Below are positions 1 through 22,547 of a stretch of DNA of 22,547 nucleotides, one piece after another. Position numbers and translations under genes: made by a program. The stretch spans positions 147,964 to 170,510 of the forward strand of contig DYQY01000002.1 in assembly GCA_020719045.1 (NCBI GenBank), given 5' to 3'. Every line of letters begins with the position of its first letter. Positions within the stretch are counted from its first letter, which is position 1. The notes under the pieces were generated by a model. That model was not told where the DNA came from, made no database searches, and was given only the letters and a program-made list of their open reading frames with translations. This DNA is from Candidatus Termititenax sp. Lineage in GTDB: Bacteria > Margulisbacteria > Riflemargulisbacteria > GWF2-35-9 > DYQY01.

Positions 1-499
1 AATCTAGATTAGCATCACGTGCTGATGGACCTTTTGGGTCTGTAGCTGCAAGCTTCGCTGGAGTCTCTGCTTTTGAAGCCACAATTGCTCTACCACCAAT
101 TTTGTCTATTTCCTTAGCTACTAGTGCAGCTAGTGCTTCTTCTCTAATTATTGGCTGTTGGCCAACTATCACTGAAGGAACTGCATTACCACTTTCAAGT
201 GTTTTCACTACTAACGTCTGAACACCATCTACATCTTGAGCCTCAAAAACTTGACCAGGTAATAATATAACAGAATTTAAAATATTTGCTTTTTCTTGTA
301 ACGTACCAGCAGCACTTAAAGAATCGGCTATACTTTTGCTTACATCTAATGTCTTTAAAGTATTCATTAATGAACTAGCGACTGCTACTCCCCGTAATAC
401 TGTTTCTAGCTTTACTGCTATTGCTGCAACTTTTCCAGCATCACCAGTAGATTTCATAACTTTTGCTGCCTCTGAAACTACTCCTATTGTTGAACCCAT
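1..499 (-). CDS. N-terminal part of an unrecognised protein downstream of the giant gene (continues past left edge)
   Basis: The frame opens at ATG (497-499) and stays open to the left edge, 166 complete codons. The start is fixed by AAAGGAG with seven bases to the ATG, the strongest ribosome binding site in the window. The protein begins MGSTIGVVSEAAKVMK and is Ala/Val/Ser-rich with amphipathic helices over the first 75 residues. A more beta-like stretch follows (VILLPGQVFEAQDVDG, then LVVKTLESG), then helical sequence and a Pro/Ala-containing stretch (AETPAKLAATDPKGPS) that looks like a linker. There is no clear signal peptide. It follows the giant gene after a 149 bp gap on the same strand with no terminator seen between them, so co-transcription is plausible. 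No family is recognised. Confidence 0.8.
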   Translation of the reverse strand, partial: MGSTIGVVSEAAKVMKSTGDAGKVAAIAVKLETVLRGVAVASSLMNTLKTLDVSKSIADSLSAAGTLQEKANILNSVILLPGQVFEAQDVDGVQTLVVKTLESGNAVPSVIVGQQPIIREEALAALVAKEIDKIGGRAIVASKAETPAKLAATDPKGPSARDANLD

Positions 500-648: not shown

Positions 649-3600
649 TCATTCGTTTTTTCTGTTTAAAGCTGTCTCAACTATTTGAGGCATAATAATA
701 TTTAATCTTTCAACTAAGTAATTTAAATCTTCTTCAGTTAAACTTTCCCAAGTATAAGTATTTGAATAATCCCTAATCAAATCTAAAATATCTTTTATTT
801 CAATAGAAAAATCCAACTGATTATAAATTGTAGCTGACTGCTTAACATCTCTTAATGATTTAATAAACTCCAGCTGAGCCTCACGTATCTCTTGATCAAA
901 ACCTTTTCCTAGACCATTTTGATTATAATAAACAAATATTGCCATTTTCATTACAACATTATCTGCTTTTATATCTGTAGTCTTTCGATCTCGATTAATA
1001 CTTGCTGATAAAGATAAATCAGCAATAAGTTCAGGAGAAAAACCAATCCTGCTAGCTTTTTTACTATGATTCCTAACTAAATACTGCTCAAAATCACCTT
1101 TCGCCTGTTTGCTTTGAATATCATCATAAAACTTAGGACTAAGAGGAATAATCTCATTAAGATTCGAAGCAGTACTTAACTGAGGATTAGCTTGCAAGTA
1201 TGCAGTTCTCCAAACCTGATAACTATCTGCGTATTTTTTTTCCGTAAGAGGAAATTGCAAATCAAAATAAAATTTACCTTGATTATTGTTTCTCATTTTA
1301 ATAAAATTAGCCATTCTATACATTATAAACGTTTTATATTCTTGTATTTTCTGAGTGTTAGTTAATTTGCCATCTGATATATCTACTGAAAAATTCCACC
1401 AATCACCAGAAAACATATCTTTAAAATCATCAAAACTTTGATTTGTGTTTAGATTCCGATGAAGCCCCCAAATAAAAGACTGAGTTCCATCTTCTTTTAC
1501 ATCATAAAATGCACCAATATCAAACAACAACTTAGTTAAACAATATGCATAAAAAGTAGGCTCATTATTACTAAAGAGAATTTGATTAAAAGTTTTATTA
1601 AAATCTGCAGAATTTTCTTTTAATTGAAAATTAAATAATGCTATAAAAATCCCTCTAATTAAAAATTTTTCTTGCAGTATTGTAGTGTCTTTATCATAAT
1701 AACTTAATAATTCATTAGTTGAAAAAGAGTTTTTCAACACTAATGAAGCAAATCTTGCATCATCCTTAATCAGTTGTAAAATATTGGTCAAATACTCTTT
1801 TCTTACTTCTGGGTCATTGCTTTTAACTGGAACAGGGGTTGCTAAAATATCCTCTGCCATCTTACGTTGTTGATCATAATGATTAGTTCCCCATATAGCA
1901 TCAGCTAATGCCAAAGATGAAGAATCCTCCATCATACTACTAGCTCCTGCAACTTGAGAAAATCCTAACAGCCCCTCAGCCCATTCACTATATCCAGTTA
2001 ATGGAGCCATTAACATTTCATATATTTGTGTTTTTTGTTTATCTGACAAATTTCCATCTTGATACAACATCCTATAAATTGGAGCTACAACTGTTTGAAT
2101 CTGAGCTTCTCTTCTATTATGACTTAACCAAGCCATATCTCCATACACATTACTTCTAACTCTATTAAATAGCTCTGAGCCAATATCAACATTATTTTTT
2201 TTAGCTATTTTTAATAGTTCACTTAATATGACTAAACTATTTTTGGAAAGGTCTTCATTAAAATGTTTTATACCAACAGAAATAATATCCAAAAACCTAA
2301 TATATTCATCTTTACTTGTAGAGTTAACTAATTTATCCTGCATTAAATGTTGCAATGAATTAAAATATGCAACTCCTAAACTTCCCCTAATTTCTTGCTT
2401 AAATTTACCCCTCAAACTATCACTACTATCAGCCCTGGTGAACCGGTTTCTTAAAACATCATCAGCACCCCTAGCATAAGTCTCTCCTTCTATAGATAGT
2501 GTTAATTCATAAATAAGATCAGAAATTAACTTAGGTTCTTTCATGGTGTTAAATAATTCATAAACTAAATTTATCATATTTTCTCTAACAATTTTATCCT
2601 CTGATATGCCCCATCCATCGCCTAGAACATGATAATTAAATGATCGAATTAATTCTGCCTTCTTTGCATCTGGCAAAAACTTAGCAGTTCGAAATAAAAT
2701 TGACATCATTTCTGGTCTCTCAACAACATCGTTACTCGTCAATCCCTCCACAAAATTAAGAGGTAGATTAGAAAAAAACGTATAGGAACTTTCAATAAAA
2801 CTTATATCTGTAGGTGTAATCTTTACATTATTCTCTAACTGATACAAGATGAAGCCTAACTTTGCAACTGCTTCCTTAGTGTTATTCTTATTTAGCCCTT
2901 TATCAATAAACTGCTCCTTATACTTATCATAAATCTTTTGTCTCTGCTGTGCAGGATCTGCACTTGCATCAGGGAAAATATAATCCTTATAACTATTTTC
3001 TGAACTATTGTCATAACGATCAATTAATCCATGAAGCGTTTGAGGTGTAAAGTTACTTACAGTGCCAAAAGCTGTTACTCTATTATCTTTAATATACTTT
3101 TCAAGATCAAAATCGCTACTAAACTCCTGGAACTTTGAGTTCAGTTCCTTACTTTCAATTACAATTACTCCTAAAACATATAAAGATATCCAAGCATCAA
3201 AAGAAGTTGAATTTTCTAACACAAACTTCTTAAACTCTTCTTTAAAATTATTACTTAGGATATGTGCCTCTATTTTTGCAGTATCATTTGGTTTATATTC
3301 TTTTAAAGCCAAATAATGATTAAACAATCCAAGATATTTGCCTTTACCATCCAAGTAGCTAAGTGGATTAGACCAAATATCCTGTGCTATAGGATTTAAA
3401 ACGTAATCTTTATTTTTATCATCTTTAAATACATCTTGAAGTGTATCATGCTTACCATCAGGACCTAGTTCAGACACCAAAACAAGTTTACTAGTGTCTC
3501 CTAAACTTATTTTAAAAGCGTTCATCATTAGCTCCGCTGGAGTATAAATATTGCCCTCAAATAAATAACACTCGCTATTTATTGTTATTGGAGAATCAGG

Positions 3601-6135
3601 CAGGCTTCCAGTTATTTTTGACTGAAAATTATCTATTAGCTCTGTTTGTAATGATAACCAATCTTTCAATTTAGTATTTTTATTAAGCTTTTTGTCATTA
3701 GTCTCTCCATCAATGAGTTCTTTTTCGATTAATGAAAAATGCGAGTAATCACAATTATGTAGACTAATTGCAAGATCCTTGTTGCTAATTTTTTCAAGGT
3801 CAATATTTCCTTTATGCAACATTAAAACTAACCAATCAAAACGTGAACATCTAGTACTTTCTATTGTTGAAATGTTAACCTTCTTTAAACCACTAGCTGG
3901 AGTGTCTGACACAACAAATGGATTATACATATTAATAACTGGTTTTATTTCATATGGTTTTAAGCCTTTAAATTCTTCCTTTGAGATACCACCATTTATC
4001 TTTCTATATAACTCAACTAACATGTCCCGATAAGTATCTTGTAATTTATCACTATTTAGCCTACTTTTAATAATACTTAAGACTTCACTCTTATCCTTTT
4101 TAAAACCACCAACTTTTGCTTTTTCTTCTTCTGTAAGATTGCTTTTAAACAACAAGGAAACCGTATCCTTATCTATTCCCCCACTTAATCCAGCATCAAG
4201 GATTAAAAAAGCTAGTAAATCTTTATCTGGCAAACCTTCTAAAGCACTACTTATACTGTTTAATAAGTTTCTGTACAAATCATGTGACTCAAAAATACTC
4301 TTAATAGCTTTATCTGATAATACCAATGAAAATGTATTTAAAAACATTTTTTCAGCACCACTCTTCTCGTTAACTAATCTGCTAAATGAAAACCATAAAA
4401 GATCAAGTAAAGATTGAATAACAGCCTCTTTGCTTTCACCATCATCAACTATTCCAAGCAGAGATAAGGATTCCGCAAATGATTTACCTTCACTTAACCT
4501 CTTAATGATAGAAAGCAAGTTTTGCATTTGTGGGGTGTTTGTGTCACTAAAACTCCTACTAAACTCTGTTAGAAAATCTGCGATAGTAACTTGTTTATTA
4601 TCCTTAACCAATTTTTGAACTAAAATATATATCTCAGGAATATTAGGGTTGCTAGCAGAAGGTATCCTGAAAGAATCAGCCACTGAATGTGCTATGTCTT
4701 TACTAATTAGTCGAGAAGCACATTCTTTAAAAACCTGAGTTCTATCTGCACTTCCTGAAAAATTAGCTTTTAATTGTTTTTCATCAATTAATTGGTGCAT
4801 TTGAAGAACTCTCCAAAGCTCGCTAACATGCAAAGGATGCTTGTCTGGATTCTGTTTTGCCATGCTACCAGAAACCTGTACCATTTGTAATAACCCTAGC
4901 AATCTCTCTGCTGATTGAGTATTTAGCCCCAATGTTTTATCTGAAGTTAAAATAGAAATGACCTCCGAAGTATTCCAAAGATTAATTGAGTTTCCTACGG
5001 TTTGATCTTTATTTATAAATCCAAGCTGATAAAGCCTAATAAATATTGTTTGAAGTCTGGCATAAAGCACTCTAGCTTCATTACTATTGGTATCATCTGT
5101 GATCTTTAATCCAAGAACCTGAGTTATCAAAGCTTGTCTTGTTAACTTATCATCTTGTATATTTTTACTATCCATTTTAGATGACAAAGCGAAAGAAGTA
5201 CTTATGTTTGTCGCATCATAAATAATCCTTGATAACTTATCAAACCAATCCTTCTGGCCCCAAAATACAGCAGAAAAACTTTCAAGACTACTAATATTCT
5301 CTCCTTTATCTAGTAGCTTAGTTATTTCATCAATCATGTCTGCTAAATCACTTTTACCTGTTTTCTTATACATTTCTTTTAATCTATCTAGCATACCAAA
5401 ATCTCTAAGGGCATTAACCATTTGAAAGAATAAAGGACGAGGTTTACTCTGATCTTTATCAAAAAGTATGTCAGATAGTTCTGCTAATTCAATAAAATCC
5501 TTAGCAACTGTATTACCAGCTTCATCTGTAGATAATAATTTACCCTGTTCTATCTGAAGATAATTAACATCATTAGTAAAGTAATCTCCAACACTTACAA
5601 GATGAGAAACAGGACCTGTAAAATTAGTATTAATATTGAAAGAAGAAACTATCCCTGTTCTAGCAAACCTTAAACTTTCTTTTTCTAAACCAGACACAGT
5701 AATAGTTAGTGGTCCTGTTTTATTACTTAACCTATCACTTGCTGCAGAGTTCATACAACTTAACAACATATCAGGTGTAAAAACAAAAGATGAAGGAACA
5801 GATATCTCCTGAATATTAAGTCTCTGAAAAATATTTCTAAGACTAATATTCGTTATATTCTTACCTGGGAACTGTTGCTCAATATATTTAAGAAGATCTG
5901 GATATTTATCTAGCCCAGCTACTTGATTTAAAGTAAAATGCTCGTCCATAAAAATATCCATTATCCTGTCATTAAACCTTTCTTGCATTGACCCACGATA
6001 ATCTTTCTTGCCATATTCATCAGATGTTCCATCATGTAAATCACGAACTGTGAACTTAAACCTATCTCCATAAGCCCCCTTAAGGGCATCTTCAATAGTA
6101 GCTTTTTGGTCTTTATTCATATCCGTTAATGCTTT
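649..6135 (-). other. Unrecognised C-terminal helical tail of the giant protein (residues about 5165-6992)
   Basis: About 1,830 residues of hydrophilic sequence follow the last hydrophobic segment. They are rich in Leu, Lys, Asp, Asn and Ser and appear mostly alpha-helical, with an irregular pattern of amphipathic helices. I see no clean short-period repeat such as TPR or ankyrin, no metal-binding motif, no catalytic signature and no sorting signal at the end (RKNE then stop). It may be a large scaffold or a delivered effector part; nothing in the sequence decides this. Confidence 0.5.
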
Positions 6136-9100
6136 ATCTACCCTTGTAAGCGCCCATCCACCAACAATAATAACCCCACCAACAACAACTCCGCCTACCG
6201 GACCAGCAACTGCAGAACCTGCAGCAAACCCTGCACCAGCTAGTTGAAATGATCCATACATTATTCCAGCATCTAACACATCGTAACTAACGTCTCTCAT
6301 TGCCTGCCATCTTACTGCACCATTATTACCAACTAAATCATCATAGTTAGCCACAACAGAAGTAGTTCCAGCATATACAATCACAAACGGAACCCCCTTT
6401 AAAGAACTTAATGCTTTAGATGATAAGGAGGCAGAAGTAGCTACTGGGCTACCACCAGTTGCCCATCTTGAAAAGTTAACTAACTTTCCATCAGCACCAG
6501 CTTTAAATACAGTATCTCTAAATGTTGCACTCATCAAAGAAGGCATACCGTGATCTAAAACATCTGTAGTAAACGTATATGGACTAAAATGCAAACCACC
6601 ATCCGCACGATACCAATTATCTCCTCTAATTCCTAAAGTCTTTACCGGTGTCCACTTATTCAACTGTTCTGATGTCATGCCAGACAAAACAATACCAGCT
6701 AATAACCCAACCATATGAAATCTTTGCAAACCTTTACCAAACAAAGAGCCTGCGCCTTGATTCCCAGCAGCCAACCTAAAAATGGCATGATCAACAACTG
6801 CTTGAGAACCACCAAAAACTGAAAGATTAACAATAGTGCCTAAATCTGCCGGAAGGATCATGCCTGCATTGCCTGAAGCTCTAAGTTTCTTCGACTGGAT
6901 AGCCATCTCTGTTCCAAAAATAACAGCCATAGGACCAGTAACCATGCCTTTCCAAGACCCAAATATACTCTCAGCTGTCTTAGATGCAACAGCTGGTTTC
7001 ATAGTATCAACTGTTCTTTTAAACCAAGTATTCTGTATCCTAGCTGTCAAAGCATCGGCACCAGTAGCAACTCGCTGTCCCCAAGTTACCATTTGTGGAG
7101 TTGCTCCAGTCATGCCTAGCATCTTTAACGTGAACATCTCTGTTTCAAAAACTGCAAAATGTAGACCCTGTTCGTAGAAATCATGCACATATTGTTGTGC
7201 ATCATAATTCTCATCATTTAACAATTTACCCATATTTAAAATCATCCCAGCTACGGTACCCATAGCAAAACCCTTAGCGGCATGAGAACCTGCGCCTATT
7301 CCGGTATCCAAAAGTCCCTGACGAACTCCAGAGTCTTTGAAAGAACCGGTGAAACTTTGATTTAAACCATATTCAAACACTCCATAATATTTAGCATTTC
7401 TCCAACATTCTTCCCCTACATCAACTAATTTTTTGCCAGCATCAGGTTTAACAGAACCTTCTGCTCTCATCAAAAGTTGCGCTCTTTTTTCAATAGATAA
7501 ACGACCACTTTTTACTGCACTGTCTAAATTAGCTAAATATTTACTCCAAATAAATTGGTTTCTTTGATGTGTTGCTCTAAGTGAGTACATAAATTCTGGC
7601 ATAGCATTAAACTCTTTAATAAGATCCGCTAATTTTGCTGTTGCTATACGCATAGCCTCGTCAACCGTTTTCCCCTCTAAGCTCTTCTTAAACGTTTCAT
7701 CGTTTGTTTTAAGGTTACTTATATCTAATTGCCCATTACTATCTTTCAATTTCTGAAGCATCTCAATATCAGCTCTTAACGTATCTGCTGTTTGTGCCTT
7801 TTTTAATAAAACCTCAGATGTATCTACAGATATCCGAAGTGAATCCTTATGCTCTCCTTGCATAAAAGCTTGTATCTGCTTATTTATGCTGTCAATGAGT
7901 GTCTTAACTGAAGAGGCATCAGTGCTTTGGTCTTGAACAATTTTATTCAATTCAGCTAACTCTTTATTGAGCCCATCAAAAATATTACTATTATTCTTAA
8001 ACCTATCACTGGATAATATCTCAATGTTATTTAGAATATTTCTAGAATACTCGGATAATATACTTCTTGCTTGATCACTCAAAGAAGTTCCAATGTCAAA
8101 CTTAAAAGGTTCCAATGCTGGTATTCCTGTTTTTAACAGCTCCACAAAACTATCGGGAAACAAACTTCTTTGTCTAACTTGCATCTTAGCTTCATAATCC
8201 ATAATTTCTTGATTTAACTTAGCCTCTACCCTATGCTGCGTCTCTAAATAACTCTTAATCTTAGCTAAATCATCTCCATGCTCTATTTTAGCTGCTTCAA
8301 ATATCTTCATTTCTTCTGTCGTTAAAAGATTTCTAATATCTGCTTCAGTTATAGAAGTATTCCCTTGTCCATAAACCAAAGAAAGCACCTTGAAAACCGG
8401 AATTCTAACTAGCAACTTAGTTCCATCTACCAGTTCAATCTCAACTTTACCTGCTCTTTTCTCAAACTCAGAATAGGACTTGGTTTCCGTAGGTCCATCC
8501 TCAGTTATTTGAACAGAAACTTCACCCGCTAGTGAAGGACTACTACTAACAGCTAACAGTGCATCCATCAAAGCAATTCGATGGCTAATATCATCTGCCG
8601 AAAGGTTATTTTTTGCTGCCAATTCTTTAAAAAATGCATCAACTCCTGAAATATCAGACCTTATACTATCGAATTCAGTTCTTGGTAATCGTTGAGAAAC
8701 CTTTAGTTGTGACGAAGTTATCATAACTTCCTTCTCTCCTATTGCAACTTCTACTGTAGTATCACCAAATGGAATAACTATCTTTGCACCGGCTGTAGGT
8801 TCTATCGAAATTATTGCCATAGCAATTAATTTATCAAACCTACCATATAGAGCGTCCATTTGTGTTTGATGAGCTTTAATCTTTGAAACATCATCACTTG
8901 ATATATTAAACGTTGCATCTTGACCAAACCTAAACTGAATAACTTCAAGTGGACTTTTACCTTCAGGGATTGTTAATCCTTCTTTATTGCAAACCTCTCT
9001 CAAGTAGGCTTCAACTGAAGAACCTCTCATTTTGCCAGTAAGATCAACATAATTATCTTCTGTTTTAAAACGAACTATATCTAACTCTAAAACAAGCTCC

Positions 9101-12100
9101 CCCTTGCTCTTTACAAGACGAACACCCCTAAGCCCATTCTTAATAAAATAATCCGATGAAGTAGAAGCTAAATTGTCTCCTGAGCTTACCTCTGCAGTTG
9201 TAGCTATTGTAACTCTCATATACTTGTATAAGGATTGTAGCTCATTACTTAATAATTGCTGAGCTAATTTCTGTGCATCATTTGCGTCATGTATTTTATA
9301 AATTCTTTCCAAACCCTCTTTAATATCAGTATTAAACCTTATTGCATAAAGACTAGAATTAACACCCTTAAGTAACTCATATATTCGCAACAAATTCATA
9401 TCACCAGCTGTAGCTTTGATTACCCCTGACGCATCAAGCTTCGTAATTAATGAATCAATTAAATCAATCTTTATTTGCTCAACATTAATAGTCATACCTT
9501 TAAATAAAATTTCAGAATTAGGTTGACCCTTAAGAAACTCTGCCAAATCTCCGTTGTATCCTTTGTCTGCTAATTTCTCCTGAAAATTAGTTACAATCTC
9601 AGCTTCAGTAATACGATACATCTTCGCTAAAGTAGCAATCTGTGAATTCAATTCTGAAACTTTCATGCCCTCACTAATATCAACTATTTTTTTTATCTGT
9701 AGCGCATGAAAATCTGTCAAAAGCTTTGTAGCTTGTTTAGAGATTTCTGAATCAACCTGACGTAAAGAATCGTATTTGTTTTCTTGCTGTAAAGGCTTAA
9801 CCCTCTTAGCCACTTGTTCCAATAATGTACTTGCCTCATTATTCCATTTAAAATACTCAGCGGTAATCCTATCTACTTCAGAGTTTGATGAACGGTTTTG
9901 TCGTGCCTGATTCTCAGAAACCAAACTACACCCATTTATCATTACCCGTACTCTTCTGTTTAATGGATCTTCAGGACCAATCTTAGTCCAATTTGATTCG
10001 TATAAATCTCCTATCTCACCAAGCATCCTTCCAATAGTATTAGGTTGACCTTTTTGGGTATAAGCCTCGCCTAACCTATCAGTAAGGTCTGAGTCTAAAC
10101 TTATCAAGCTAATAACCATAGCTCTAGCACCACTTCGACCAACTCTTCTTTTCGATTGAGTATCAACAGACCTACCAGCCAAACTTGGATTAGTCGTATA
10201 GAGCGTAAACCCATTCATCGGCTCAACTGCTGCTACTGCAAGATCTGAACCTCTACCTTCCATTAAAAGCTTCGAAAAATAGCTACCTCCCCTTACTTCA
10301 CCTTGAGCGTCTTTTATTAAATTATCAAATCTACTTTGCATCTCTGATAACTTATCTGCGTTAGCTGTTTTTAGACTTGCTTTATCTGCTTCTGTAAGAG
10401 TTGTAATCCTATCAAACTCTTGAACCGCATCAGGTGTTGTACCAGCCTGAATCATTTTTAATAAATTCTCAACTCCTTCTACACCCTTAAATGTAACTGT
10501 TTGTCCATTTAGTGTTGTAATAATAGAACCTTTTATGGCCATAACTAGACTTATCCTAGCTCTGGTATATTCGATGCTAGGATCAAGCCCATCAATATTA
10601 CGACGAAGCACTGGAAGGATATCACTCTCACTAGATTTAACGCTTCTCTCAAACTCCATTACTGCATCCTGTAAATACACTGTTTCTCGCTTTTCATTTT
10701 GTGCTTCTTCTAGTTTTGCAAAATTATTACCTAATTCAGTCTGAGCTAATGGTTGAATTCTACTCTGCAACTGCCCATTAGCCTTCCTTAAAACATCAAG
10801 CTCAGAATCTCTAGTAACAACAACCTCTTTTCCTTCTATCGTCAATGTAAAAGAGACCTCCGTGTCAGCAACAATACCATTTGTCTTAAAAAGCTTCCAA
10901 ATATTATCTCTAGCTTTATCAATCTCCCCATCATACTTACCAATATCTTTACTCAATCCATTCTTATACGTAGTTAGTAACTCTGAAAATTCTACATTTG
11001 TTAGACTTTCTTTTTCACTAATCAATTCAAAGATTTTATTGTGCATTTTTATTTCCGTTAATTGCCAATCTAATCCTCTACCACCACGATTATTGATAAT
11101 TGTAATAGAGCCATAACGTCCACCTTCTAGACGCAATCGTTCAGTAGCATCTGTGGAGTTCTGACTTGTAAGCACATTAACTCTGACTAATAGTTCTTTT
11201 CGTATTGAACCATCAGTCATAAAAGAATTATTTGGCTTAATTACTCCACTTTGACCTAACCCCTCTAGTTCTGATATACCTTTTATAAAAGAACTAATGC
11301 CTATTTTATCGTTTTTAACCATATCTCTAAGTGTGTCTGGAACAGCATTTCCACCCTTGCTATACAATTCCACCCAAGCTTCTTTCAGGAATCTATTTGC
11401 ATCGTAAACCCTACCGTCTTTGGTGCCATCTATTTTAAGAAACTCTTGCATTTCAGGTGAATCTTGCAACCCTAATGTTTGTATCCAATATTCTTTCTGG
11501 AATCTCTCAAAACTCATTTCCTTTTTAAAACAAATAACACCCTTTTGTTCACTTATCCCCATGGCCTTAGCTAATGGAGTTTCTGAGGTAATCGTAACAC
11601 CAGTGACTCTTTCTAACTCTTGAAGCCACAGCCTTTTAGCTATGCTTTGTTGTTTATAATAGTCGTTTTCTGCTATGATTATTGGGTTAGCCCTTTCCCT
11701 GCCGTCTGTTGGGCTACTTTCCTTTATTCTCTCTGCCAAATCCATTTGCAAATGATCCGCAGTTCTATATACTGCTCCGTTTTCTTGAATTATTCTTGGT
11801 TTTACAGGGTCAGCAAACGACAGCACAGCACTACCAATAGAACGCTCCAACTCTCGTGATTCATTTGTTAATGTTCCTGACATACCTACAAACGTATAAT
11901 ACATCTGAGCAAATATAGCTGTTTTGATTCTACCAGAAGTTTCTGTTTCCTCAGTAATCTGAAAGCTTGAAACATCAATATTTAATTTTTTTGAAAATCT
12001 AATAAGTGCCTGAGCCTCTAATGCTTGTTGTAATCCTTCGCTAAACTTAGAACCTATCTGTTGAGTTCCCTCAGCAGCACTATTTAAAACTAGCTGTTTA

Positions 12101-15100
12101 GTTTTCCCATCATTTTTCCTACCTGCTACTGGTATTTCCTGTATCGACCAATTCTTGTTTGATTCATCATTATGGAAATATGCATCTAAGGAACGGTCAA
12201 TTTGTCTAACTGCTAATGTTTCATTCCTTTTTAACATATCGTCTCTGAAAGACTTTAACCATGATAATTCTTGTTTTAACTTAGCTTGATCTTCACCTTT
12301 CGCTGACTCAATATGAGCATCATAATCACTAATCATTTTATATAATTCTTGTCTGATTTCATGAACATTCAACAAGACCTCATGAGTATTTCTGTTTCCT
12401 TCAAGCAACCTTCCTGCCCTATCTCCTTCTTTCTGTAAATTATATGTAAATAAATAGGCGCCCAAATAAGACTTCTCATTAAAAGTCACTTTAGCAACCT
12501 TACCACTCATAATTCTGTCACTTAAAGCCTGAACAATTAATGATTGGTCTACTTCATCAGCTAAATGAAACCATAATCCTTGAGTAATAAGTTTGGCTGT
12601 ATCTATGTTTTCACTAGTTACGTCACTAAGAAGGTCAAAAACCATATCTGTAACTGTTCCATAAGTCATTCTACTGCTATATGCTTGACGAGAAGCAGTT
12701 GCTCTTTCTGAACTACCTCTTTGGTCTGGAAGACCAGAGACACATCCTACATAATTAGGGTCGCCAGTAATATAATAGGTATAACCCCTAATTTCTGCAA
12801 AATCTTTAAGTGCAAGGTCATCTATAGCAGAAGTAACATGAACCCCTTTCCCAAATAAGCTAAAAACATATCCTGAAGCGCCACCGACTATTGTCTTACC
12901 AGCTCCACAAGGAAGTTCAGCTAACATTTTATTAAGCAAAGCTACTGATGCATATATTTGTTCACGAAACATTCTTTTACCTTGAAATTGTTTCTTTAGC
13001 TCTAATCCAACTGAAAAAAGTGCATCAGAAACATTTTGAACAGTTAGTTTATTCTCGTTCAAAGCATTAACTAAACTATTAAAATCAGTAACCTTTATTT
13101 CAGTACCCTCATTTGTTTTTATACTCAACTCTTTTCCATTAGCAGTTAATTTGGCTATCTTCTCTTTTGCAACTTTACTAAACAAATTCTCAAAGCCACC
13201 ATCTGCTATATCAACAGGCGATGTAGACCTTCTGACTCCCTCTCTAAATAAAGCAAGTGCCTTATTCTGAAGATCTGCAATCTCAATATTTAATCTGTCA
13301 ATATCAGGCTTATTACGATTTCTTTTTGCGATTAGTAACAGCTCAAATTTAGCAGTTAAAGCTTGATCGTATTCAACGTGTTTTTCCTTAAGCTGAGCCA
13401 GTGTAAGTCTTACTACTTCAGTTTCATACCTATCAACTTCCTTGCTTCTAGTCTGAACCTGTTGCATCCTTACTGCATCTAACTTTTCAGAAAATAATTT
13501 CTCTAAACTAGTTCTGGTGGTTTCAATATCCTCTTCATTAAATTTTATTGTATCAGAAAGGTCTAATTGTCCTGGTGTCTTATCGTATTTAGCTAATGTC
13601 ATAAAATGCGATTCTAGAACTATAGAGTCCAAGTATCTTTTTACTTTAAGCCCACTAATATCCTGCACAATTATTGGATTAGAATCCTTGATCTTAACTT
13701 TTCCATTATCATTACACTCTAATACTCTGATACTCTCTATCCCGCCTTTGTCGTTCGGGGTAAGTTCTAGAAGGACTCTCCCAGCTAGCTTACCTTTTGG
13801 CAAATCTAAACCACAGTGTTCATTTAAATCAGCTCTGTTTACATGTAAATATAATTTATTGCTCTTTATAAATATTTTCGAGTTAGGAACAGATAACGCT
13901 TGTAGCCCCTTAAAAGCTAATTGGTCTGAACTAAGCCGCAAATCCCCATGTCTTTCAAGTAAAACAGTATTCCACATACTAGCCACTGCGTCTCTTCTAG
14001 CAGTGTCAAAATCCTTTTGTCCACTCTCAATAGCTTCTCCAAGAGCTTTAAGTTTATTAACAATACTATTTATCTGTTGCTCAGATAAACTCCAGCCATC
14101 GTCAGCACCTTGACTACTAATTAATACTTGTTTAAAACTCTCACAAAAATCAGTAAATTTTTGTATTTCCGTTTTTTCGATTGCTTCACTAGCACTTCCC
14201 CTTGAAGCGTCTACCTCTACTGTTCGACTTGGGGCAACATCCATTGCACCTTCTACTGCTGGCTTACCAGCTCTATCTGCAACTATTGTTTTTCCGCTTT
14301 CTGGCTCAGCAATATTTGTAGTCTCAGCTGGCTTTGGCTTTAAAGCATCAAAAGCTTTATTAAGAAACTCAGCTGTGGCACCTGTTGATTTATTGGCTTC
14401 TTTAATAGCAACAGCTAAGTTTTCAGGAAGAAATAATTCACGAATAACAACTTTTTCTGACAGACCATGCTCTCCAGCGTTTAAAACAACCCTGTATTCT
14501 GGTCTAACAGTTCCCGCTCCAACCCTTCTTAGTGAAACGTTATTGTCTATCCCTCGTTTATATAACTTCAAGATAATATCTTTGTCATCGGTTACTTCCT
14601 TTAAAAACTCATTTCTCTCACTCATTAACATAAATGGCCTAGTGAAAATTAATGCATTTTGGCCATCTGACAGTGTCTGAATCTTAAAACTATCAGAATA
14701 TTTCTGAATTAATCCATTAAAAGCATCTGGATTACTTACAAAAAACCCTAAAGGCTTAGCCCCTTGCAGATAAGGTTCAACAGTAATAGAACTAACTCTA
14801 TAATTTTTGTTACCAACTTTAACAAGATAATCACCAGCATTAGTTCTCTCCATATGTGAACCACTAAAATCATTTGCTAAATCATCTATAACGTCATACG
14901 CTAATTGAGCTTTTTCTTTATTCACTTCAAGGAATCCAGAAGGTAAGCCAAGACCTTTCTTTATCTGAGAATGTTCTCCGTCTACACTAGTATATTGATA
15001 AAGATTGTCACCAATTTTAATACGGTCATAACTAAGACCACCCTTCATATAAGAAGCCGTGCCTTGATTATACTCAACACCTTTGGCTTTTATATCATAA

Positions 15101-18100
15101 ACAGCATATGGAGCTGTTCCAACCTCATATCCACCCTGATTTCTCTGATATACTTGTGCACCAACTGCAGTTTTTGTTTCGACATGAAAGGTAGAACCTT
15201 GGGACGCGAACGGTAAAAACATTGACCAAGTAGCAAAACTAAAAGCTCTATTAAGGACTTCTGAAGGAGCACTTACCCATTTATTATCGGAATTACTATA
15301 ATGATTAGTAATCCGCCTTAAATGTTCCCATAAAGTTTGTGTCTTAGTACTATCCAAGAATCTCTCTATGGGTTTTCTTTCCTTTGGTGTATATCCATTA
15401 TTTTTCATCCAATCAACAACTTGTTTAATATTGGCTGGTTCTGTTAACCTCAATTTACCATCAGTTATAAAACCACTTTCGGTTAAATGAGTAATTAAGT
15501 TACTCCTTTTATTTCCATCTGTTTCATTTACTACTGGTATTTTTGATGTTTCTATAGCAGAAAATTCTTGCTTATGCTTCAAAACATTCTTTTTTTCCTC
15601 AGGCGTCATAATCCCTAGTGAAGTCATATATTTTCTAATACTAGAAGATACTTGCATCATAAACCTAGTTTTAGGACTATCTGGTGCTGCAGACTTCCTT
15701 CCGACTTCTGTATCCTTATAATCTCTATCCATTGCCCTTGTTGCAACCCCTTCATGAAATCGAGATAAGGTACCTCTTACATCTTGTCTGCTTCTTGGTT
15801 GCTGAAAAGGGATATTTGCACTAAATCCCGTTTCAAAACTTTTTTCATACATAAACTCAGCATATAAAACCAGCTTTCCTCTTTCTAAAGCAAGCTTTCT
15901 AAACTCTTTTGGGTGTCGATCTCTCATCACACACAAAGATGGGTTTTCTGTTAATAGTATCCTTTCTCCAGTTTGTAGTTGAAGTTGTTTTAATGTTCTT
16001 TTTGTAAAAGATTCTAAGGCACGTCTGTTATTAACAAGCTCTTCTCCATTAGGCAAGAATAAATATCCTTGATACTTACCTGCCTGCACATCATTAAAAT
16101 CAACCTCTTTGCCCTTAACAAAACCTCTGCTTTTATCATATACATGTTCATATCCATTAAAGACTATTTTATTCATACCCTTTGAAATCACGAACAAAAT
16201 AGTAGCGCCTAAAGACAAGAGACTATATATAGACCCTGCTAGTCTAGCTGGGTCATCTGCACCGTTTTGTGTTCTTTCGATAGTATCATTTAGATAAAGT
16301 CTAAAGAAATCCAAAACGGATTCAGGCATTGATGATGAGCCCACCACTTCTAGTGCCCTTTGCTCAATACCTGAAATAGTTGCTTTGTCATAAACCCATG
16401 GTGCTAGTTTTGTAAAAGGGCTCTTAATTAATTCCCAGGTTGAAGAAAAAAAATCAGCGAGTCCAATAATAGGATATTCCCATACAGACGGATTTTCCTG
16501 ATGTGCATTAATACTGACACCAGGTGAGAATGTTTGTAACAATTTGGTATAAAAATCTGAATCATAGCTAACTTTAGAAGCATCACTGTTTGTTGTTAGA
16601 AGCTTATTCAAAGAAAACCTACCTAAACTAACGTTAGTATCAATAAGTTGAAGCCCTTCTGTTTCCGATTGCTCTAATTCTTCAAGTTTCTCTTTTAGAA
16701 AACTCTCTCTCTCTTCAGAAGTATTAAACGTTTCCTTTGAGCTAGCAACTATTGCCTGATCCATATCAGCTAGTTCCTCAATAACTGCATTTACAGAAAA
16801 ATGCTTTGTTGATAAAAAGTTGCCCATTCTTTTATTTCTAACCATTATGAGCAATGCTTTCATGCTATCCAGTGCTTTTCTTGCATCAACACTTAGACCA
16901 CCATCTTGGTCTAATGAACTAATTTGCAAGTCAGCAGGTAACTTATTGATAACATCAATATCCTTTGACTCAAATACCTGAGACCATGCAACTGCAAATT
17001 CCTCATCGGTTGACATTTCCTTCTGAAAATACTCAAAAGCCTCCCTAATATCTTTTCCATAAATCTGCTTATCATATGGAATACCTGCTTCGAATCTAAA
17101 AATCATTGTTGCACTATTGTTTTCCATCGATTCTTGAAATTTATTTGAAGAGACTATAGCTTGAATAAATTGAGATACGAAAAAGTTAACTCTGGTATCA
17201 GCAGAAGCAGTTGAAGACAAATCAAACCCTTCTTTCTGAGCTTTTTCCAAAACTGCTTTAAGTGCACTTAAATACGCATCATTATCCTTGCCTTCAATAG
17301 CTTCTAATACTGCACGTCCTTCACTAAAATCATTTAAATATGTATTTAAACTTGGCATCTTAAATAATAAATCTTTTAACAAACCCCTATTTTTAATTTG
17401 CTCAAAAAGTGCATTATTTGTAGCATTAGTTGTACCATTAACTATTGAAATAACAGCAGCCAACAGCTCCTTGCTTTTTATCTCTACTTTTGTATTTTTG
17501 GAAGACGGAACAGAAGGAACTGATTGAATACCCAGTTGTTCCTGAAGAAAGGCTACTGTATATAACCCAAAAGCTAGGTCCACTTTATTCTTTTCTGTAA
17601 CTTGCTGATACAACATAGCAACTATGTCTCTTAGCCTTTGTAGTTTCTCAATCCCATATTTTTGATTCTCATCACTCAACATATTTTCAGGATCAACTAA
17701 CTCATCAAATCCAATATTTAGATTCATATCCTCTGCTAAAAAATTCTTCTGCAAAAATTCACTTATTTCTGCATCATTACTAAAAGCTTGTTGTAGTCTT
17801 TGAATAAAGCCTTTATCTATTCTTCCTCCAAAAATATTATCTTTTAATTCTGTTAAATTATCAGCAGCAATCTCACCTTTTGAGGCCATTCCATAAATTC
17901 TATCTATCTCTGTTTGATATAAGTAAGTTTTTAATGTCAAAGATACAGAACGTAAAGCTCTTTCTCCAGTTAATAAATCGAACTGAGGATTACCTTTCAG
18001 TGCTATATTTTCTAAACCATTAGAAAATTTACTACTTTGCATCCGATAGAACTCCGAAACAGCTCTTCTAGCAAAAGATAAGGCGATAGAGCCATATTTG

Positions 18101-21100
18101 GTAGAAAATTCTGCATCTAATGAGTTACCTTTATCATCAACAAACTCACCTGTTAAAAATACGTGATCAGGTTTAAATTGGACTTTATCTGGATTACTTA
18201 AAGCATATTGGATTAATTTATTCATATTTGACATAGCATCATCCAACACAGAATTAACACCATCTTTTATTTTTTGTTGTTCACTTGCATTAGTTACGGT
18301 AGATAAACTAATTGAAGGAAGCTTTTTATATACTTCATATGCAACAAGGTCCAACCACGTTCTATCTTCTGATAAAAGAATAGTTTCTAAAGTACCACCA
18401 CTTTTATCAGCTTTTTGTTTTAAATCTAGAACCCTTGCATAAAGCTCGTTTAATAAAGCATTTTCAGTATCTACAACTTTTGTACCAACTGCACTTACGT
18501 TATTTAAAGTTAGAGACATTAACGAAGCAATTACTTCTGGTCTTGTTATATCGCCATTTGCATTAGCAAGTTTCCCAGCCTTCAAATCTTGCACTGCTAC
18601 CTTTTTATTAATAACCCGCTTCGCTCCATCTATGAATTCACTTTCACTTATTGATATTTTGTCTTTATACTTTAAAAAAATCTTATGAGAAACACTATCA
18701 AACTTAGCCTGCCAACCTTCAACGACAGAACCATTAACGATAATAGCTTCTTGTTCCAGCTCTTCCCAAATACTTATTAATGTTGCGTAATCTATACCTT
18801 TTATGGCAAGCATTCTTCCACCAGAAAGAATCTCTAACTCATTAGTCTCTTCAAAATATATCATAGACTCCTGATCTAACTTATATTGTGTCATACTAGT
18901 AAGGTAATTACTGTCAACCTTCTTATGATAGATAGAAACAAAATGTCCTTTTATATTAGTCACATCTGCTCTAGTTTCTTCTTCACTAAAAATAATATCC
19001 TCTGCTTTTATATTTGATAGCCCAGGTACACCAGCAATAGCTTTAATTATGGCTGTCTTTGCCTCCTCATTATTCTTCCAACCAAGTATATACATTAATT
19101 GCATGCTAATATATATTGATGATACTTCTTGTACTCCTTGGATATTTATTATACCCTTTAGCCATGAGACAAAATCCCCAACATTTGTAAAACCACTTAT
19201 CTGAACACTTTTTAATAATTCTCCTGACTTATCTCTATTAGCTCGCCTCTGATTGTCAACTTCAGATTCAAGCCCCTTGTAACTTCTTAGTTCAACAAGT
19301 TCATCAATAAGATAAATAGTTGGATCAACTTTTGAACTGTCAGTATTCTCCTTCTTGAATTCCTTAAGTCCAGCAGATACAGCCAAATACCCATTAATCG
19401 CCTTAAGTTGAGACTGCTTATTACCTGGGAACTCATTTTCAGCTATTTTCATTAGATTCTGAATAACAAGAGGAGCTGTTAGCAATTTTTCAGCACTCTT
19501 TGCCTTAGAATAGGTATCCACTAGTCTAGTTAAATCCTCTAAACAAATACTGTCAGTCTTGGTGCCAGACAATAAATATACGATTAATTCATCAGTATAG
19601 TTACCCTCTAGACCAATATTTAAACCAAACTCAGGCAATAACTTTTCACAAAGAGATTTAATAACTGGATATTTAGATAAATTAGAACTATCTAGCTTGT
19701 CACCACTATCCATTAACTTAACTATCTCAGTCTCCAAGGCTTTAGCGTCTATGTTATTAACATTAATAAAAGCTTGCATTTCATTAGATTGACTTAGCCT
19801 TAAAAACCTGAAAACTGGACTATAATCAAGGAAGTAGCCTACTCCAGAATCTAGTGTTTTAATTAAATCAATAACAGAACTTATTCCCTTAACTTGCAGG
19901 GCATCTGCTCGTTTATACATCTGACTACCTAGCCATGTACGCCCATCAACCGGTCCATTAGCATCAAACAAGAAATTCTGTGCTTGTGTAATAGTTAGTT
20001 CTGATAATCCAAGCTCTTTTCTTAAATAATTAAGGAAACCAGTAAGCATCTGCTCGTCTATTGCATCAGCCTGAACAGTTAACCCACCGAAGCTTCCTTG
20101 CTCCAAAGCAGTTGAAACTCTTATATTTTCTGCATTATCATTTTTAGCACTTACTAATGCTTCACTTCTATATAAATTATCGCCAGACTTAATATATGCA
20201 AGCGAACCATTAAACATCTTGTATAACCTCTCGGTTATAACTGAAGCATTTGATTCCGAGCCAAGAGGAAGTGATTCAATATATTTCCTTATTAACCATA
20301 GTGCTTTTGCATTATCCGTATTTTGCCATTTTTTATTGCTATTAGCAATTTCTGGCTTCTTAGAATTACTGGAAGTCGCAATATAATCCATAAATGCATT
20401 GTATAGTTCTGGTATAAAGACGAAAGTATTTTGGTTAGATGGCATTTGATTAAGAAGAGATAGTACAACTGTTTCAAATGCTGGAGGTAATTTATTACTA
20501 GATGCTGTATTTCCTAGTTCAAACACATACACTTGCGCAAATAAATTAATAACTTCATTAATACTTCCCTCTCCAAGACTTTTGAAATTATCATTTAACC
20601 ATTGATTAATCTGACTCGTAGTCTCCTGAGATTGATAATAATTCATCAAAACACTACCATCTTGCAACACTGTGCAAAAATCTTGTTGTTTAAGGCTATC
20701 AAAAAAAGCATCTAGCTTATCGGCAGGAATAGCACTATTAAAATCGCTCTTAGAAAAAACAGCAGGAAGGGAGCTATTAATAGTACTAAGCTTTACATAA
20801 TTGCGATTTCCATGTCGTATTACCCTACAGCAATACTTACCAGAACCTATGCCATGCAATAATTCTTGATTTTGAACTGAAACATTATTGGTAGAAAAAA
20901 ACAACTTCTCAGGCATACCAATTTCTGCGTACTCTTCAACCTTTGCTGTTCTATTCAAACCAAGTGATGTTCGCTGACTAGTATCCTGAACAGCAGAACC
21001 TATAGCAACACCTGGCTTCTTAGGATTATTAATCACATATTCTCTATCTACCTCTCCATTATCATCTAACATTCTTACTTGGATATAATCATCGCTAGAT

Positions 21101-21632: not shown

Positions 21633-21639
21633 TCCTTCT
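21633..21639 (-). promoter_or_regulatory. Ribosome binding site of the giant gene
   Basis: AGAAGGA on the minus strand ends five bases before the ATG at 21625-21627. It decides this start over later in-frame methionines. Confidence 0.75.
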
Positions 21640-21806: not shown

Positions 21807-22547
21807 CTAAAACGTACGTGTAAATGGATTATAAGTTGCAGTTGAATTGCTTTGACTAGAAAAGGTAAACGTATATGCTTTACCACTTTCAAATGCATAT
21901 TTAGCAGCACTGAAACTTTTAGCTATTAGAACTTCACTGCTACCAGTAGTGATAGTTACCGTCAAATCTGGTGGTATTGTCTGCCCAGACTTTGCACTTA
22001 GTATCTGATTTAATTGTATTTCTGCACCAGAAACTACAGAAACACCAGGATTAAGCTTCACTAAGTCTACTGGTGCTGTCCCTGCTGGTGCAGGCGTTTC
22101 TGATGTCACTGCTACTGGCTGCACTTGCTGTGCTGGTGCTGCTGGTGTGGCTTCACTAGGAGCAAGTTTCGCAATTATTTCAGCTAAAGAATAGCTTTTC
22201 TTAGACTCTATTTGGCTAAAGCCAATCGCTGTAGCTTGAGCTGGAGTCAATTCTATTTCTATTATACTAAGTTTCTTAGCTAACTCACAGTCATCTTTAG
22301 CTTCTCGTGTATCTTTATAAGGAATAGGAGGTGTAGTAGTAGATATACTTGCTTGTATACTACCTTTAATCTGTTCACTTAGCTGTCCTTGTAAATATTG
22401 TTGTACAGTTATTTCTTGTGTTGTTGGTGTTGTTGGTGTTGCTGGTGGGGTGGCTGGTATTGTTACCTTAACTTTATAATCTTCTAAACCAAAACCTGTA
22501 TCCTTAATTAAAGACTGTATAGCATCATACTTTTGCTGGAGAGTACT
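21807..22547 (-). CDS. C-terminal end of a Pro/Thr/Ala-linked protein with a terminal beta domain (start outside window)
   Basis: The frame is open from the right edge to TAG at 21807-21809, giving 246 residues. There is no methionine codon anywhere in this stretch; the TTG at 22248-22250 could be read as a start, but the same frame continues upstream with sensible protein sequence, so I treat the gene as truncated by the window. From the edge it has a helical, Gln-rich start (LQQKYDAIQSLIKD), a Thr/Pro linker (IPATPPATPTTPTT), a charged helix with the only Cys (DDCELAKK), a short motif IELTPAQATAIGF, an Ala/Pro linker and a final beta-rich domain ending NPFTRTF. The linkers and beta domain suggest a surface or secreted modular protein. 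It may be part of another very long gene. It lies 179 bp upstream of the giant gene on the same strand. I do not recognise a family. Confidence 0.85.
   Translation of the reverse strand, partial: STLQQKYDAIQSLIKDTGFGLEDYKVKVTIPATPPATPTTPTTQEITVQQYLQGQLSEQIKGSIQASISTTTPPIPYKDTREAKDDCELAKKLSIIEIELTPAQATAIGFSQIESKKSYSLAEIIAKLAPSEATPAAPAQQVQPVAVTSETPAPAGTAPVDLVKLNPGVSVVSGAEIQLNQILSAKSGQTIPPDLTVTITTGSSEVLIAKSFSAAKYAFESGKAYTFTFSSQSNSTATYNPFTRTF

Follow-up and report, generated by a model that had tools for sequence, protein, structure and literature searches.

The 22,547-nucleotide stretch of a Candidatus Termititenax genome analysed here (contig DYQY01000002.1; hereafter the window) is dominated by one unbroken open reading frame (ORF) of 6,992 codons, which spans positions 649-21627 on the minus strand and carries a SecA-type motor core in mid-protein, at residues ~2868-3865. 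SecA is regarded almost solely as the partner of SecYEG. ATP is bound and hydrolysed by its two nucleotide-binding domains (NBDs), which together with the preprotein cross-linking domain (PPXD) grip a polypeptide and move it forward, and its scaffold/wing and C-tail couple this motor to SecYEG. The initial annotation, made from the letters alone, had placed a SecA-type motor centrally within a giant protein, with about 2,860 residues before and about 3,150 after it, and these flank lengths proved right.

None of 20 simulated sequences of equal dinucleotide make-up gave an ORF above 140 residues, and the guanine-plus-cytosine content by codon position (GC1 > GC2 > GC3) was uniformly coding over the entire giant ORF. 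Together with the profile scores given below, these results indicate that the ORF and its SecA motifs are not products of chance. The features of the giant, in window coordinates with residue numbers (aa) of the protein, are as follows.

649..21627, minus: giant ORF of 6,992 aa, ATG to TGA; one frame of evenly coding composition, with SecA-core giants known from 22 further genomes scanned
21633..21637, minus: Shine-Dalgarno-like AAGGA ahead of the ATG, seen in the sequence
13036..21627, minus: N-terminal flank, aa 1-2864; without known domain, only chance-level Pfam matches, no signal peptide by eye
12478..13026, minus: NBD1, the first RecA-like lobe, to just beyond DEVD, aa ~2868-3050; Pfam, PDB and profile-profile matches
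12892..12909, minus: Walker A / motif I, CGAGKT, aa 2907-2912; motif in frame, alignment of giants
12655..12666, minus: TYGT motif, aa 2988-2991; motif in frame, alignment of giants
12547..12558, minus: Walker B / motif II, DEVD, aa 3024-3027; motif in frame, alignment of giants
12058..12477, minus: probable PPXD position, aa ~3050-3190; assigned from its place inside the profile-profile match to SecA 72-410
12013..12042, minus: SEGLQQALEA element of SecA, aa 3196-3205; motif in frame, PDB search
11872..11883, minus: motif III, MSGT, aa 3249-3252; motif in frame, alignment of giants
10948..11835, minus: NBD2, the second RecA-like lobe, first part, aa ~3265-3560; P-loop_SecA match (0.0067)
11068..11082, minus: motif V, GRGLD, aa 3516-3520; motif in frame, comparison with other giants
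10228..11040, minus: insertion specific to this lineage, separating motif V from motif VI, aa ~3530-3800; comparison with other giants
10123..10158, minus: motif VI, QSKRRVGRSGAR, aa 3824-3835; PDB search, comparison of giants, profile-profile match
652..10032, minus: C-terminal flank, aa 3866-6992; without known domain, and without SecA_SW or SEC-C in Pfam and profile-profile searches

A SecA-type motor core inside a giant protein

Pfam SecA_DEAD matched residues 2825-3260 with 103.5 bits (E = 1.6e-29; cut-off 24.6 bits), and the second lobe gave the weak P-loop_SecA match listed above. No match to DEAD, ResIII or other generic helicase models of Pfam was found in the window protein; in one relative (L031) the DEAD and ResIII models did match, scoring below SecA_DEAD. 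The SecA models of NCBIfam also matched the core (best 7.6e-27, 93.8 bits), far short of the SecA equivalog cut-off of about 800 bits and of that for SecA2. A sequence search of the PDB with the window protein placed 24 SecA chains on top (best 1e-17), and over the best stretch the core was ~30-34% identical to canonical SecAs. In profile-profile comparison the window core aligned with positions 72-410 of canonical SecA at 98.6% probability, a match that takes in the probable PPXD region, with an additional marginal match over motifs V-VI. Among the relatives, one single match covered positions 86-564 (99.8% probability, 2.4e-29), that is NBD1, PPXD and NBD2, and another giant subfamily matched positions 48-602. 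SecA profiles thus win over those of generic superfamily 2 (SF2) helicases, which bears out the embedded SecA-type motor first proposed.

The seven hallmarks named in the initial annotation all lie in one minus-strand frame and in order, from CGAGKT at residue 2907 to GRSGAR at residue 3830, and both RecA-like lobes carry their SF2 catalytic motifs (I, II, III, V and VI). In an alignment of 14 giants that are only 15-22% identical to the window protein and share few aligned invariant columns, the GK of Walker A, DExD, the SG of motif III and the R of motif V were invariant and the D of motif V nearly so; motif VI (Q...R..R) was visible by inspection in each of the 14. This pattern is that expected of a working ATPase, and the persistence of the catalytic residues across giants of such low identity argues for conserved ATPase function in a catalytically complete core. 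Motifs V and VI of the window giant are separated by an insertion of ~290 residues, which automatic alignment mishandled and which is absent or shorter in the other giants; the core is about 1,000 residues long here and about 600 in the relatives. GRGSDL (aa ~3791), favoured as motif V by phmmer and one alignment, was rejected; GRGLD at residue 3516 was preferred because of the GGRG.DW context common to L021/L022 and the preceding strand.

Neither SecA_SW (the helical scaffold/wing) nor SEC-C, the Zn tail, was detected in the window giant with Pfam, and significant profile-profile matches stop near canonical position 410 in the window protein and 564-602 in the relatives, none reaching far into the scaffold/wing. 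As judged from these profiles, the module is a SecA-type motor core and not a second SecA, since the C-terminal scaffold/wing and Zn tail were not detected; for the same reason a role of the core in general export through SecYEG is unlikely. Two corrections to the SecA segment as initially drawn follow: it includes the V-VI insertion, and it ends at motif VI because no C-terminal SecA domains are detectable.

Compared with canonical SecA (Bacillus subtilis, PDB 1tf5/5eul), which gave the best Pfam, NCBIfam and PDB matches, the giant core shares NBD1, the SF2 motifs, the SEGLQQALEA-type element and NBD2. Canonical SecA, however, is free-standing, ~840 residues long and equipped with HSD/HWD and C-tail, whereas the giant core sits inside a longer chain, shows no detectable C-terminal SecA domains and carries the 290-residue insertion in its NBD2.

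Giants across the Margulisbacteria

We scanned 74 Margulisbacteria genomes (labels G###, loci L###) with SecA_DEAD and a giant-specific profile, counting SecA cores in non-canonical ORFs of at least 900 residues. Such cores were present in 23 of the 74, about a third (G000, G001, G002, G004, G005, G006, G008, G009, G013, G014, G016, G018, G022, G027, G029, G032, G053, G054, G056, G059, G067, G070 and G073). The ORF reached at least 2,000 residues in 20 of these 23 genomes (longest 7,197; several are cut by contig ends). Inside subfamilies (L016/L017/L019; L018/L024/L025; L021/L022/L048; L015/L023/L029/L049) the giants are collinear and homologous across thousands of residues, which indicates real genes with the motor at a fixed place. 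L030, L032, L033b and L034 make up a second, smaller group, which in the NBD1-region tree formed its own clade apart from the main giants; L032 also shows a GTPase-like motif, DTPG. A separate 704-residue ORF in G007 (C51:13399-14547) is a free-standing second SecA_DEAD protein (318 bits), in a class where canonical SecA occurs as well.

The window giant has fewer hydrophobic segments than its shuffled counterparts (25 versus 81 at a threshold of 1.6). The giants therefore look soluble, and a membrane-protein reading was rejected. No signal peptide or hydrophobic leader was apparent when the N-terminus was inspected by eye. Two giants, both from one genus, end in or close to a LysM domain on the C-terminal side (3e-14 and 1.5e-9), which hints at contact of the giant with peptidoglycan. 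No close relatives were found in viral contigs; the phage and plasmid matches shown carried a SecA annotation or none, PADLOC gave no significant match, and in PHROGs only the SecA core matched, to a family of unknown function.

The window genome (1.75 Mb, 99% complete) encodes, as the check proposed at the outset revealed, an ordinary SecA of 843 residues besides the giant, together with a single SecY. Canonical SecA was also seen in nearly all of the 23 giant-bearing genomes, and exactly one SecY, never a second, was found in each of 19 genomes tested. On this gene content the giant is not the housekeeping translocase of the cell, given the separate ordinary SecA and the single SecY, and no accessory Sec system is visible.

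In the NBD1 tree the window core formed a very long branch, and the tested giants lay farther from its motor than canonical SecA did. Grouping it with the giants of its order-mates was weakly rejected (approximately unbiased test, p-AU = 0.041), grouping it with the main giant clade was not (p-AU = 0.109), and canonical SecA was not firmly separable from it. A clean phylogeny of the window core was thus not obtained.

Divergence was also pronounced within the genus. For AspS, over the stretch compared, the window genome and its genus-mate G001 are 95% identical, and for QueC 87%, compared to 54% and 51% for the third (+3) and second (+2) genes downstream of the giant. The G001 giant (L015+L035) occupies the same position and has the same size, and is unalignable with that of the window outside the motor. 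Two explanations present themselves: exceptionally rapid evolution at this locus, or the exchange of one of these congeneric giants.

Genes around the giant

Two further genes lie in the window.

21807..22547, minus: upstream gene, truncated at its 5' end where the contig stops; ORF listing, and other giants also have a large upstream orphan gene
2..499, minus: small gene downstream of the giant (+1), with which the conserved neighbourhood on that side begins; ORF listing, locus comparison

In most other families orphan genes of 602-1,090 residues stand directly upstream of the giant, homologous between several families. Downstream, the window's family and related ones share an order of a small gene (121-216 residues) followed by an HExxH gene of ~560-790 residues, after which the window's genus has a gene of ~488 residues (+3). 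At the window locus the HExxH gene (+2) lies outside the window (L036:17666-19369, minus). The +1 gene contains a run of N just beyond window base 1 (L036 end).

The HExxH motif and a downstream glutamate are invariant in the +2 gene family. Pfam returned no significant family for the HExxH genes scanned, and the product is predicted from its motif to be a putative zinc metallopeptidase. An HExxH gene follows the giant in eight genomes from three families (G000, G001, G004, G005, G006, G008, G013, G018), and another is found in G007, close to where a cut giant ends. Strict co-occurrence was not found: the HExxH..E family (putative zincins) is carried by 39 of the 74 genomes, sometimes as tandem pairs (loci L036, L015/L035, L023, L022, L048, L052-L059). 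The link between giant and HExxH gene is accordingly positional and not obligate, because the family also occurs elsewhere without an adjacent giant. Homologous Walker A genes of ~390-440 residues lie close to giants in four genomes (L036, near 14900-16177, minus; L017; L018; L024); by eye they look like AAA_14/DUF4143-type ATPases and may be a mobile family.

Possible roles of the giant

The anatomical case for these proteins is strong and the functional case weak. The reading that we favour, with a confidence about evenly balanced between yes and no, is that of a soluble-looking, apparently leaderless giant whose polypeptide-handling ATPase would act in cis inside a cell-envelope or cell-interaction protein. 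ATP hydrolysis would drive a grip-and-push of polypeptide through the NBD/PPXD clamp, as the roles of these domains in SecA suggest, and the arms of the same chain (~2,860 and ~3,130 residues) would take the place of those SecA domains that serve for docking, gating and receiving substrate. A polypeptide-handling motor with the long arms as its docking and receiving parts is the most economical reading, because the giants keep the NBDs and PPXD and the SecYEG-coupling set was not detected. The giant is probably a fast-evolving protein of the cell envelope or of cell interaction, a role to which the LysM domains near the C-terminus of relatives and the HExxH gene downstream in several genomes point. 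Of the "translocation motor" initially named, the SecA-type motor stands; translocation is unproven, and the parts of SecA that couple to SecYEG were not detected.

Several observations weigh against this reading. Pfam recognised no function-bearing domain in the flanks of the window giant, and neither an export signal nor a secretion partner dedicated to it was identified. LysM was seen in only one genus, not that of the window, and many of the 39 genomes with the HExxH family have no SecA giant. SecA_PP_bind (PF01043) gave no Pfam match in the window protein; in the relative L023 it scored 23.2 bits, just under the cut-off of 23.5. Structure prediction, recommended as a check of the fold, was run and gave models too poor for an independent test (mean predicted local distance difference test scores of 40 for aa 2840-3880 and 47 for aa 2865-3275); Foldseek with the latter model ranked SecA first, above DinG and MDA5, a ranking of almost no weight given TM-scores of ~0.4 and an input alignment that contained SecA.

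The initial annotation knew of no characterised protein with such an arrangement. SecA domains in very long proteins have in fact been published for Wolbachia (wBol1_1092, 11,829 nucleotides), insects and Amoebophilus (PMC3639933, PMC3482391), and no functional characterisation of any of them was found among the open-access papers searched. The Wolbachia genes are listed as phage eukaryotic-association genes (PMC5062602) and the Amoebophilus proteins are mentioned among effectors (PMC3482391). These proteins (wBol1_1091, wBol1_1092; wHa_3920/3930; the insect and Amoebophilus examples) resemble the giant in having a SecA domain in a long protein of uncertain function (PMC3639933, PMC5062602, PMC3482391), and Wolbachia, like the window genome, has its SecA-domain protein beside a normal secA. 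By their descriptions they are set apart: the Wolbachia proteins reach ~3,940 residues and have reported eukaryotic similarity, whereas the giants reach ~7,000 residues in an unrelated phylum with a conserved neighbourhood of their own. Kamneva et al. 2015 (PMC4452313) described secondary SecA_DEAD proteins of PVC and other bacteria that are linked to genes resembling those of type I secretion. Those loci likewise combine a second SecA_DEAD protein with a conserved locus containing a peptidase gene, but they are not described as giants and have HlyD/OEP-type neighbours (PMC4452313), for which no significant Pfam match was found in the +2 and +3 genes or the neighbours of relatives scanned.

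Margulisbacteria have been reported as enriched in huge proteins without functional (COG) assignment (PMC11573180). Those proteins and the giant ORFs of Omnitrophota resemble the window giant in their great length, few recognisable domains and reduced genomes; no SecA domain is mentioned for them in PMC11573180 or PMC10066038. SecA domains in large proteins are thus already known, and the Margulisbacteria family of SecA giants appears unreported in the open-access papers searched, among which we found none joining SecA-domain long proteins, secondary SecA_DEAD proteins and the huge proteins of Margulisbacteria. The recurring giants show re-use of the SecA motor, apparently minus its SecYEG-coupling half, in proteins of several thousand residues. 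The core offers a first functional handle on huge proteins that lack functional assignment, and as a defined piece it can be expressed and assayed for ATPase activity and chain binding.

We consider it unlikely, if worth weighing, that the giant is an exported or injected effector, which would leave the cell without a leader, conceivably through a flagellum-type apparatus, its SecA core then remodelling or translocating proteins in or on a host or prey cell. The lack of an apparent leader, the extreme divergence inside one genus and the precedent suggested for the Amoebophilus and Wolbachia proteins are consistent with this, as is the distribution of export genes: FlhA/SctV occurs in 66 of the 74 genomes and FliF/SctJ in 52 of 55, and flagellin was detected in 8 of 55, solely in the window's class. 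However, far more genomes have the apparatus than have giants, flagellin is present in the window's own genome, no effector or toxin domain was found, the organism has no known host, and 5,000-7,000 residues would be an extraordinary size for a type III substrate.

Doubtful too is a purely cytosolic remodeller, an intracellular scaffold or chaperone whose core would move unfolded chains or RNA with no part in export or cell contact. The soluble profile, with few hydrophobic segments and no apparent signal peptide, would suit it; very fast divergence and patchy distribution would be unusual for a housekeeping machine, and the LysM domains of the two relatives point to the cell wall.

Less probable is a self-contained translocation machine in one polypeptide, whose core would use ATP to pull or push its own arms, or a partner chain that they hold, across or along a membrane without SecYEG, and which would belong to a contact-dependent, fast-diversifying system of Margulisbacteria. 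It is improbable that the SecA fragment was recruited as an idle structural or binding module: the divergence of the window core from the cell's own SecA and the large insertion within NBD2 would fit, but the Walker, III, V and VI residues are kept across the giants. An additional true preprotein translocase ATPase of a SecA2-like accessory Sec system, to which the second SecA cores of several genomes might point, is scarcely credible with a lone SecY in each of the 19 genomes tested, no SecA_SW or SEC-C, and the NCBIfam cut-offs so far from reached.

Apart from the giants, FlhA and FliF are each encoded twice in the window genome. There and in G014, one flagellum-type set contains a sigma factor alongside rod, P-ring and export-ATPase-like genes; FlgI, FlgG-like and FliI-like genes were confirmed with Pfam in the loci examined. 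Such sets may possibly encode a filament-less basal body or an export device. Flagellum-type sites were noted at G000:C22:88405, G000:C28:40980 and G000:C31:129550 and in L046, L047, L050 and L051. In L047 an ATP synthase operon adjoining the second flhA-like gene encodes a 236-residue protein (17498-18208, minus) with three F0 c-subunit units in succession.

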